This document shows positions 16,482 through 62,573 of a stretch of 64,000 nt of DNA, piece after piece (within the stretch, counting starts at the first letter, position 1; the number at the start of each line of letters is the position of its first letter). Made by a program: the position numbers and the translations under genes. Origin of the DNA: Methylocapsa palsarum. GTDB lineage: Bacteria > Pseudomonadota > Alphaproteobacteria > Rhizobiales > Beijerinckiaceae. The DNA is taken from assembly GCF_900114285.1 (NCBI RefSeq), contig NZ_FOSN01000007.1, positions 62,001 through 126,000 on the forward strand. Direction: 5' to 3'. The notes beneath the pieces were generated by a model. It ran no database searches and was not told where the DNA came from. It saw nothing but the letters and a program-made list of their open reading frames with translations.

Positions 16482-16594
16482 GAGCATATTCCGATTGGAT
16501 TGAAATCAATCCAATCGACAAGAATATGCTCAAGCTTTTGATTCTGGAGCGATTTCTGATCGATCGCATGACTGCATGCGATCGGAAAGCGCTC
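16482..16594 (+). repeat. Interspersed two-hairpin element, copy B1
   Basis: Full forward copy, head-to-tail with B2. The first hairpin arm is GAGCATATTCCGATTGGATT. It lies 31 nt after the hydrolase stop and contains one GANTC site (GATTC). Confidence 0.88.
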
Positions 16595-16709
16595 GAGCAT
16601 ATTCCGATTGGATTGAATCAATCCAATCGACAAGAATATGCTCAAGCTTTTGACTCTGGAGCGATTTCTGATCGATCGCATGACTTCATACGATCGGAAA
16701 GCGCTCTAG
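16595..16709 (+). repeat. Interspersed two-hairpin element, copy B2
   Basis: Full forward copy, nearest to consensus. The right end GCGCTCTAG supplies, on the minus strand, the TAG stop of the sensor kinase gene. It carries GAATC and GACTC. Confidence 0.9.
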
Positions 16710-49075: not shown

Positions 49076-49191
49076 TAGCACATATTCCGATTGGAGTGAA
49101 TCAATCCAATCGACAAGAATATGCTCAAGTTTTTGATCCTGGAGCGCTTTCTGATCGACCGAATGATCACATTCGGCTGGAAAGCGCTCTA
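49076..49191 (+). repeat. Interspersed two-hairpin element, copy F (variant stem)
   Basis: Forward copy with CTAGCACATATTCCG at the left. The second hairpin has arms CCGAATG and CATTCGG in place of the usual CGATCGCATG/CATGCGATCG, and its outer stem GAGCGCTTTC/GAAAGCGCTC is perfect. One GANTC site. Confidence 0.88.
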
Positions 49192-55841: not shown

Positions 55842-56126
55842 GAGGTTGCGAACCGGATCGAAACGGCCTCACGCCTCTGGCTTCTCACGCGGTAAATATT
55901 TTTCTCCCCAGCATTCCCCGCCCCCATATTCCCCGCGAGACCTGAGCTCCCGTGGCGTCCCGGCTCTTTGGCCGTCCGCGCCTTGCCCGTTGCGGCGCGC
56001 CGCGCGAGAAGGGCGTCAGAATCGAGGGCCGGGCGACAGCAGCGAGAACGCTTTGCGAAACCATCTTTTCCACGCCATTTTGTTGCGCGCCTTTTTGCCT
56101 GGTCCGTGGGTTGAGGGCGCGAACTG

Positions 56127-57974
56127 ATGCGCTTGCTTTACGCTGCGCTTGTCTCGGCCCGGGGCTGGCGACGCCGCCTGATCGCCTTCGCCGCCGGCGC
56201 CGTGGGCGCGCTTGCGATGGCGCCATTCGATTTCATGCCCGCGATGATCGTTTCGATGACCGCCGCCGTCTGGCTCATCGACGCCTGCGTCGAGGCGGCG
56301 CCCGCGAAGCAAGAGCATATTCCGATCGGATTGAATCCATCCAATCTACAAGACTATGCTCAAGCTTTTGACTCTGGAGCGATTTCTGATCGATCGCATG
56401 ACTTCATGCGATCGGAAAGCGCTCTAGCCGCGCGCTTGCGCCTTCCAGCCGGCGCGTGGAGCGCCTTCGGGGCCGGATGGTGGTGGGGTTTTGGCTATTT
56501 CGTCGCCGGCCTCTGGTGGCTTGGCGCCGCTTTTCTCGTCGACGCCGATGAATTTCTGTGGGCTCTGCCGCTGGGCGTCGCCGGCCTTCCGGCCTATCTC
56601 GCGATTTTTCCCGGGTTTGGCTTCATGCTCGCGCGGCTTCTCTGGTCGCCGGGATCCGGGCGCCTTTTTGCGCTCGCGGCGGGGCTCGGACTGACGGAAT
56701 GGCTGCGGGGACACGTCCTGACCGGATTTCCCTGGAACAATTTCGGCATGGCGCTGGGCGGAAATCTCGTGACGGCGCAACTCGCCTCCATTGTCGGACT
56801 TTACGGATTGACCGTCATTTCCGTGGCGATGTTCTCCGCCCCGGCGGCCGTCTGCAGCCCCCGCGCGAAGCTGACGCCGCGCTCGGCCGCCTCTCCCGTT
56901 CTCGCCGCGCTCGCCGCGCTCGCCGCCATCATCGGATTTGGCGAGCTTCGCCTCGGGGAGCCAGATCCCGGCGTCACGCCCGGAATAGCGATCCGCATCA
57001 TGCAGCCCAATCTCGCGCTCGATGCGAAGTTCCGGCCGGAAAACAAGGTCGCGATCCTTTCACACTACCTGAATTTAGCCGGCCGCCCCGCTGAGGATGC
57101 GGCGTTTGAACATGCGACCGCGACCCTTCATGTCTGGCCGGAATCAGCGTTCCCGTTCGTCCTCTCGCGCGACGCCTGGGCGCTGGACAAAATCGGCGCG
57201 TTCTTGCCCCCTGATTCTTTTTTGTTCACCGGCGCGGCAAGAGCTCAGGAAGCCGCGCAGGAGGCTGCGGATGAGGCCGCTGAGCAGGCGGCGAGACGGG
57301 ATGAAGCGGACAATGGCGCGGACGACGAGGATCCGCTGGCGTCGTCGGCGCCGTCCGTGAAATTCTATAACGCCATTCAGGTCGTCTCGGCGGGAGGCCT
57401 CATACTCGACAATTACGACAAGGTCCACCTTGTCCCGTTCGGCGAATATCTGCCCCTTGAATCGCTTCTGAGGCGATTGGGCCTTCGTCAATTCATCCAT
57501 GTGCCGGGGGGATTTTCGCCCGGCTCCGCCAGAGCGAGCCTTTCCGCACCCGGCCTTCCGAAGGCGGCGCCGCTGGTCTGCTACGAGGCGATTTTCCCGG
57601 GCGAGGTCGTTCCCGACGACCCCTTAAGCGAGCGGCCGGGCTACCTCCTGAACGTCACCAATGACGGATGGTTCGGACAGACCGCCGGACCCCATCAGCA
57701 TTTCGCCCAGGTCAGGCTGCGCGCGATCGAGGAGGGATTGCCCGTCGTCCGCGCCGCGAACAGCGGCGTTTCCGCCATCATCGACGCCTACGGGCGTGTT
57801 CTCCGCGAACTTCCGCTCGGCGCAACCGGCGTCCTCGACGGTCCTTTGCCGCTGCGAATCGCGCCTCCCCTGTTCGCCCGGTTTCCGCGAGGGGCGACGA
57901 TTCTGGTCTGGTTCGCCGCGTTGGCCATCGCTTTCGTAAGTCACCACAGAACGTTGACAAAAATGAATAAATGA
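56127..57974 (+). CDS. lnt: Apolipoprotein N-acyltransferase with in-frame repeat insertion
   Basis: Lnt adds the third acyl chain to lipoproteins in the inner membrane. The N-terminal membrane region is followed by the nitrilase-fold domain with the triad E339 (WPESAFPF), K432 (NYDKVHLVPFGEYLP) and C485 (PLVCYEAIFPGE). The 615 residues exceed the usual 510-560. Residues 63-100 are the translation of interspersed-repeat copy G, inserted between membrane segments 2 and 3; a further acidic/Ala stretch near 375-405 (AQEAADEAAEQAARRDEADNGADDED) adds length. The catalytic core is intact, so function is probably kept. Confidence 0.94.
   Translation: MRLLYAALVSARGWRRRLIAFAAGAVGALAMAPFDFMPAMIVSMTAAVWLIDACVEAAPAKQEHIPIGLNPSNLQDYAQAFDSGAISDRSHDFMRSESALAARLRLPAGAWSAFGAGWWWGFGYFVAGLWWLGAAFLVDADEFLWALPLGVAGLPAYLAIFPGFGFMLARLLWSPGSGRLFALAAGLGLTEWLRGHVLTGFPWNNFGMALGGNLVTAQLASIVGLYGLTVISVAMFSAPAAVCSPRAKLTPRSAASPVLAALAALAAIIGFGELRLGEPDPGVTPGIAIRIMQPNLALDAKFRPENKVAILSHYLNLAGRPAEDAAFEHATATLHVWPESAFPFVLSRDAWALDKIGAFLPPDSFLFTGAARAQEAAQEAADEAAEQAARRDEADNGADDEDPLASSAPSVKFYNAIQVVSAGGLILDNYDKVHLVPFGEYLPLESLLRRLGLRQFIHVPGGFSPGSARASLSAPGLPKAAPLVCYEAIFPGEVVPDDPLSERPGYLLNVTNDGWFGQTAGPHQHFAQVRLRAIEEGLPVVRAANSGVSAIIDAYGRVLRELPLGATGVLDGPLPLRIAPPLFARFPRGATILVWFAALAIAFVSHHRTLTKMNK
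56312..56427 (+). repeat. Interspersed two-hairpin element, copy G, inside lnt in frame
   Basis: This forward, near-consensus copy is read as 38 codons starting [20 protein letters not shown] and ending RSESAL. Unlike most copies it contains no stop in the reading frame used. It carries GAATC and GACTC. Confidence 0.93.
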
Positions 57975-62499: not shown

Positions 62500-62573
62500 T
62501 GGAGCGCTTTCCAGCCGAATGTGTTCATTCGGTCGATCAGAATTGATTCAATCCGATCGGAAAATGCTTTAGG
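62500..62573 (-). repeat. Interspersed two-hairpin element, copy H (internally deleted)
   Basis: Reverse-orientation copy lacking the middle 40-50 bp. It keeps the variant hairpin arms CCGAATG/CATTCGG of copy F. The right end CCGATCGGAAAATGCTTTA gives the TAA stop of the L,D-transpeptidase on the minus strand. One GANTC site. Confidence 0.8.

Follow-up and report, generated by a model that had tools for sequence, protein, structure and literature searches.

A 112-nucleotide palindromic repeat read through in frame in the lnt gene of Methylocapsa palsarum

One copy of a high-copy palindromic repeat lies in the lnt gene of Methylocapsa palsarum and leaves its reading frame open, in what appears to be a recent insertion that the gene has tolerated. 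The repeat is very likely a non-autonomous MITE-like element, a bipartite palindrome of 112 nucleotides with an architecture resembling the CIR repeats of Caulobacter, which inserted at a TA dinucleotide in lnt and duplicated it. In the following, the window is the whole stretch of 64,000 nucleotides that was analysed (contig NZ_FOSN01000007.1, positions 62,001 to 126,000), numbered from its first letter, and the features discussed are collected in Table 1.

Table 1. Coordinates of the lnt gene, the parts of its insert and the other repeat copies in the window
Feature	Position	Strand	Basis
lnt with insertion	56127..57974	+	open frame, Pfam LNT_N/CN_hydrolase, PDB Lnt matches
112-nt unit GAGC...GCTC, placed in the one combination of orientation and phase that is open	56313..56424	+	repeat family comparison
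Right-end TA, putatively the second TA left by target duplication	56425..56426	+	right TA in 111/172 copies
38 inserted codons, residues 63-100	56313..56426	+	frame and alignment of relatives
Arm 1 hairpin, GANTC in apical loop	56313..56361	+	fold of family consensus
Linker with second GANTC	56362..56376	+	fold of family consensus
Arm 2 hairpin	56377..56424	+	fold of family consensus
Copy on TAG stop codon	4073..4177	+	
First copy of tandem pair	16482..16596	+	
Second copy of tandem pair, on TAG stop of minus-strand gene	16595..16709	+	
Copy on TAG stop codon	18606..18720	-	
Copy on TAG stop codon	21659..21766	+	
Copy on TAG stop codon	22428..22538	-	
Copy without assigned gene end	49078..49191	+	
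Partial copy, 3' part only	62500..62542	-	

The lnt gene and its insert

The gene is a single open frame of 615 codons encoding an apolipoprotein N-acyltransferase of 615 residues, which matches the Pfam families LNT_N and CN_hydrolase and ten Lnt sequences of the PDB (best E 4.4e-36). Its insertion corresponds exactly to codons 63-100 and consists of one repeat unit followed by TA, with the junctions AAG CAA/GAG and GCT CTA/GCC; the dinucleotide to the left of the unit (56311-56312) is AA instead of TA. A sequence-only reading of this DNA had rightly recognised a copy of an interspersed element in these codons, with the frame passing through it and adding 38 residues, and had drawn its limits (56312-56427) one base too wide on each side. 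The copy has a G+C content of 46% compared with 65% for the remainder of lnt, and among 142 copies of 112 nt it differs at three positions from the consensus and at three from its nearest other copies, a distance consistent with a recent event. A chance origin of the observation is excluded.

The alignment of related Lnt proteins, set beforehand by that reading as the test of an insertion, left its claim standing, as the 38 residues are missing from all 47 aligned lnt rows of relatives, 40 of them distinct in sequence, and a search of these rows with the 38-residue peptide returned the window as its sole match. In relatives the loop that follows the residues '..WLID' spans 12-56 residues, with a median of 19, and in the window it spans 59. 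Glu339, Lys432 and Cys485, taken from Lnt biochemistry to be the catalytic triad, are unchanged across all 25 aligned Lnt proteins. An AlphaFold2 model of the enlarged protein (mean pLDDT 83.2, pTM 0.84) places the insert between helices 39-56 and 108-128, that is helices 2 and 3, where residues 61-100 form a low-confidence loop (block means 49-66) with two tentative helices. Both the intact catalytic residues and the position between membrane segments 2 and 3 had been anticipated from the sequence. The loop bearing the insert presumably lies on the cytoplasmic side, and we infer that the enlarged Lnt folds and works with it.

Architecture of the repeat family

A DNA search of the M. palsarum genome with the repeat gave at least 84 matches (40 of 287 candidates scored), a covariance model gave at least 150 full-length matches (150 of 3112 candidates scored), and an HMM run over 605,776 sampled bases of the same genome found 199 copies, 184 of them near full length and 15 partial. 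The unit measures 112 nt in 142 of 172 near-complete copies and has the ends GAGC(A/G)...TTCCGATC in a TA context. Across these 172 copies the flanks follow the pattern (C/T)TA, unit, TA(G/A), which can be written YTA-unit-TAR: the left outer base is C in 74% and T in 22%, the right outer base is G in 66% and A in 26%, and the outer T and outer A of the flanks are conserved in 85% and 87%, respectively. Inner flank bases are conserved less than the outer ones, with TA present at the left end of 95 copies, at the right end of 111 and at both ends of 68. The motif GANTC occurs in all 172 copies, with the site in the loop of arm 1 present in 126 of 142 and the linker site in 117 of 142. A search of Rfam over positions 56000-56800 returned no family up to an E value of 1.

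Folding of the family consensus gives two hairpins of about 49 nt each, with a linker of 15 nt between them (-49.0 kcal/mol, z -5.87). In an alignment of 32 copies from four genomes, compiled without both-strand doubles and without the rows L433 and L435, 96.8% of cells pair and 45 are doubly changed, compared with 12.5 in shuffles (none of 500 shuffles reached as high a value); shifting the pairing partner destroys the signal. RNAalifold applied to 55 copies from the M. palsarum genome gave an end-to-end structure instead (-26.3 kcal/mol, 2 of 32 pairs doubly changed). The two-arm fold is preferred because the changes between species back two arms.

Head-to-tail arrays with a period of 111-112 occur at window positions 16482-16709, G000 C47:205690-206026 and G000 C37:168249-168588. 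The joint between neighbouring units reads GCTC/GAGC without TA in the window pair and at loci L081 and L089, and GCTC-TG-GAGC at L052, which suggests that neighbouring units arose by slippage duplication or through a circular junction, not by new insertions.

Placement at stop codons

Coding-like frames of at least 60 codons that enter a copy end within 3 nt of its edge in 68 of 79 cases, while 10 end inside the copy and one passes through it, an excess of edge endings with P = 4e-22 against an expectation of 1/3. The 68 edge stops comprise 64 TAG and 4 TAA codons, and of the window's eight full copies five show such an ending. Gene prediction places 60 of 172 full copies on stop codons, 98 in intergenic DNA, 9 over a gene end and 5 inside a gene. 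The 76 stop codons at elements are divided into 64 TAG, 7 TGA and 5 TAA, as against 73, 260 and 67 among 400 stops elsewhere. Stop sites are used in excess when non-coding YTAR sites serve as the reference (60/158 vs 61/665), and within 300 nt of copies there are 179 3' gene ends and 67 5' ends. That the element elsewhere overlaps stop codons had already been noted; the overlap is real, but it is the usual position of the repeat near genes rather than damage to them.

The same edge ending is observed in 18 of 21 cases in relatives (8/9 in G004, 10/11 in G014 and 0/1 in G011). Of three Methylosinus matches one was examined, in Methylosinus trichosporium OB3b, and there the edge of a half-copy coincides exactly with the end of an annotated gene; the two plasmid copies of Methylocella tundrae adjoin no listed gene. 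Stops at the edge are mostly TAG because the target TA and the first G of the element together form TAG in either orientation. This accounts for the survival of the stop codon and not by itself for the excess at stops, which may reflect a benefit of a 3' hairpin or a target preference.

Reading frame and other in-frame insertions

One unit and one TA together make 114 nt, a multiple of three that adds 38 codons. When the M. palsarum consensus with a TA at each end is translated, five of the six combinations of orientation and phase hold stop codons and a single one is open, with TA at codon positions 2-3 and the repeat in the orientation of the gene. This is the combination found in lnt, and it recurs in two further in-frame insertions, in an MFS transporter gene of the same genome (C37:203494) and in cobN of G004. 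The G011 consensus has a second open combination besides it. The MFS_1 domain match spans the insert of the transporter, which sits where the two matching halves of its relatives leave a gap and is missing from all 17 aligned homologues; the coding scores flanking it are weak (0.10 and 0.16). CobN of G004 (PF02514, 1167 aa) carries the repeat after residue 706, and the insert is missing from all 13 homologues covering the site, which are 64-78% identical to the G004 protein on either side.

In-frame cases are rare, with two recognised among the 199 sampled copies of the M. palsarum genome. If coding NTA sites were used and kept as often as stop sites, about 70 would be expected, a figure good to an order of magnitude only, which assumes that 86% of the DNA is coding and draws on a sample picked around copies. 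In the stretches fetched for the 199 copies, 31 frames that pass through a copy possess a start and extend over 25 aa or more on either side of it, and the sequence is coding-like on both sides in lnt and, weakly, in the MFS gene only. A first classification by codon score was dropped, as wrong-frame scores overlapped true ones. The five copies that gene prediction places inside genes are that of lnt and four others, the MFS gene being missed. In three of these four, and in one further frame, a Pfam domain begins past the repeat (a Cys/Met PLP enzyme, an aldo/keto reductase, a fumarase and a member of the IF-2B family), and since the domains begin after the repeat these four frames are read as upstream extensions rather than as in-gene copies. 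The remaining predicted gene that holds a copy (C40:177354) encodes 137 aa. Upstream copies in frame with genes are found at G000 C46:435617, C55:316426, C46:469010 and C45:59441, and automatic annotation may extend the N-termini of those proteins through the repeat.

Selection on the encoded peptide

It could be argued that Lnt gained the 38 residues as a functional addition under selection, a domesticated peptide, and that the frame of the family is kept open by its use in proteins. The frame is open in 120 of 142 copies, compared with 97.4 (sd 5.6) expected from randomly placed substitutions, and the consensus sequences of G014 and G011, like the cobN copy, keep it open as well. However, the excess of open copies is only apparent, since variants are shared between copies, and it is gone once only private mutations are counted: among 85 of these, synonymous changes number 18 (19.0 expected), non-synonymous changes 65 (62.9 expected) and stop changes 2 (3.1 expected). 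Codon-level selection on the peptide was rejected on this ground. Moreover, the open frame is shifted in the commonest unit of G004, which is 113 nt long (9 of 17 rows, where both strands of at least one copy were counted); the cobN copy of that genome has 112 nt. The copies of relatives counted for these frame comparisons include some that were read on both strands, 7 of 33 listed 112-nt rows being such doubles. The insert is missing from all 47 lnt rows of relatives. A selected addition is thus unlikely. The sequence-only reading had left the choice between selection and chance survival of a frame-open copy; with one combination in six open and private mutations free of protein-level constraint, the balance leans towards chance survival.

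Mobilisation and origin

The repeat is small and non-coding, has inverted-repeat ends and sits in a TA context, all of which are features of TA-targeting MITEs. IS630 elements prefer the TA within CTAG, and the target in lnt was probably such a CTAG (AAG-CTA-GCC). In the proposed mechanism, a transposase acting in trans would have moved the element, the target TA would have been duplicated upon insertion, and the left TA in lnt would later have changed to AA. Purifying selection would then purge insertions in other phases or at more rigid sites, leaving those at stops, at intergenic sites and in a few in-frame loops. The AA to the left of the lnt unit and the weaker conservation of the inner flanks count against a simple TA duplication. 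Among the 131 junction-spanning matches listed by a search with joined flanks for an empty site, none is clean by eye and most are tandem arrays matching themselves.

The M. palsarum genome has four IS630-type and six IS5-type transposase matches. Neither type was accepted as the source of the repeat, as no repeat-like flanking ends were recognised in the 40 loci obtained in two transposase searches of 15 genomes each; single end-like motifs occur in two of these loci (L278 and L287) and are not paired around the transposase.

The high copy number, the preference for 3' ends and the tandem arrays of these palindromes would also suit a REPIN-type element moved by a RAYT transposase, and a Y1 transposase match is present in G001, G003 and G006, members of the genus with some copies. 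Against this, the M. palsarum genome and G002, G004, G005, G007, G009, G010 and G011 all bear copies and give no match to Y1_Tnp (PF01797), the arms of about 49 nt do not fit a REPIN, nor do the TA flanks, and we regard a REPIN as quite improbable compared with the TA-targeting MITE. A high-copy repeat in a draft genome of 78 contigs also raises the suspicion that a copy was misjoined into lnt during assembly, but the unit is only 112 nt long and the contig that holds lnt in its interior has 219,649 bases. The insertion also keeps the frame perfectly between intact flanks and has independent counterparts in the MFS gene and in cobN of another species, which makes an artefact very unlikely. It is least credible that lnt is decaying and that a large insertion in a conserved enzyme gene marks its loss of function, given that all 615 codons are open, the Glu, Lys and Cys residues are invariant, the coding signal is strong on both sides of the insert (0.39 and 0.32), and a search of the M. 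palsarum genome with the Lnt protein gave at least 21 matches (21 of 275 candidates scored), of which, among the matches listed, a single one is full-length and the rest are repeat copies.

Comparison with known repeats

CIR were reportedly first described by Chen and Shapiro in 2003. The CcrM-associated intergenic repeats of Caulobacter are about 110 bp long and consist of two palindromic arms and a linker, with GANTC sites, one of them at the apical loop, and with TA at both termini; stop codons close each of their six frames, and no intragenic copies are reported (PMC2229807). They are elsewhere called 'strictly intergenic' (PMC10969869). By this description the architecture of the M. palsarum repeat matches that of CIR: it is of similar size (112 nt in 142/172), has a high copy number (199) and an alphaproteobacterial host, and shares the two arms with linker (the RNAalifold structure of 55 copies being a different one), the GANTC at the apical loop and the terminal TA. 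It differs in having one open frame and three copies inside genes. Rickettsia palindromic elements are short palindromic repeats that are inserted in frame and tolerated in conserved genes (PMC2229807, PMC10969869). The parallel with these elements drawn from the sequence holds, in that the present repeat, judged by their description, appears to work like them and is read through in frame inside protein genes (lnt, MFS and cobN). In contrast to them, its host lies outside the Rickettsiales and has a genome of 4.1 Mb, in-frame cases are rare and placement at stop codons is dominant.

The TA-flanked MITEs RUP, ERIC and Correia resemble the repeat in size, TA context, high copy number and lack of autonomy (PMC2229807). 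RUP of Streptococcus pneumoniae shares its ends with an IS630 (PMC2229807), whereas such a partner was not found here in 40 loci; in other TA-flanked MITEs the stem is formed from the two ends (PMC2229807), whereas the present consensus is two-armed, although RNAalifold pairs it end to end. Coxiella QMITE1 and QMITE2 overlap the 3' ends of genes, in two cases by 2-3 bp that give the stop, and some are inserted in frame (PMC5896051). The likeness extends to both properties, but the host is unrelated and QMITE2 has direct repeats of 7-11 nt and a GTAG REP (PMC5896051). Bradyrhizobium Br-REP1 and Br-REP2 are likewise alphaproteobacterial palindromic repeats of 3'-UTRs and intergenic DNA, with other consensus sequences and no in-gene copies mentioned in the accessible part of the source (PMC5082802). 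The accessible portions of PMC2229807, PMC2759123, PMC10969869, PMC5896051 and PMC5082802 contain no description of the 112-nt repeat, and for stop-codon placement they offer nothing closer than the Coxiella QMITE (PMC5896051).

A tentative and rather doubtful proposal is that the repeat is a CIR-like mobile element of 'silent landing', which restores a TAG at stop codons in either orientation and can add a 38-residue loop rather than a null mutation when it lands inside a gene, its ends having been shaped by selection for low host cost. If true, this would mark the first demonstration of a CIR-type repeat within genes, along with a counterpart outside the Rickettsiales to the protein-coding palindromes of Rickettsia. 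The sum of 112 + 2 = 114 nt and the single open combination in six would explain when an insertion is tolerable, and landing on a stop codon while returning a TAG suggests how a high-copy repeat could spread at low cost. Lnt, the MFS transporter and CobN provide three natural loop insertions for testing the uptake of mobile DNA by proteins. Annotators should be aware that the starts of some genes downstream of copies may be wrongly extended through the repeat.

Distribution among relatives

A repeat search of 20 genomes found matches confined to the same genus, in 11 of 12 members including M. palsarum itself, and 15 of 60 genomes matched in a broader search (with no more than 14 candidates scored per relative). 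Outside the genus (G019 and G045), the matches listed cover the 3' part of the repeat only, as do those on Methylosinus plasmids, for example NZ_CP023738.1 217856-217907. Several matches listed within the genus (e.g. in G010) are also restricted to the 3' part. Given such matches in and outside the genus, single palindromes may have been joined to form the two-arm unit. G008, of the same genus, gave no repeat match in either multi-genome search and has at least 150 matches to the DUF4096 (IS5-type) transposase.

The nearest named relatives of the Lnt protein belong to the Beijerinckiaceae, and the N-terminal Lnt rows of several members of the genus are those of the Methylocapsa acidiphila, Methylocapsa aurea, Methylocella tundrae and Methylocella silvestris records, which places the host in the Methylocapsa/Methylocella clade. 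Judging from an identical N-terminal row, G004 is probably M. aurea.
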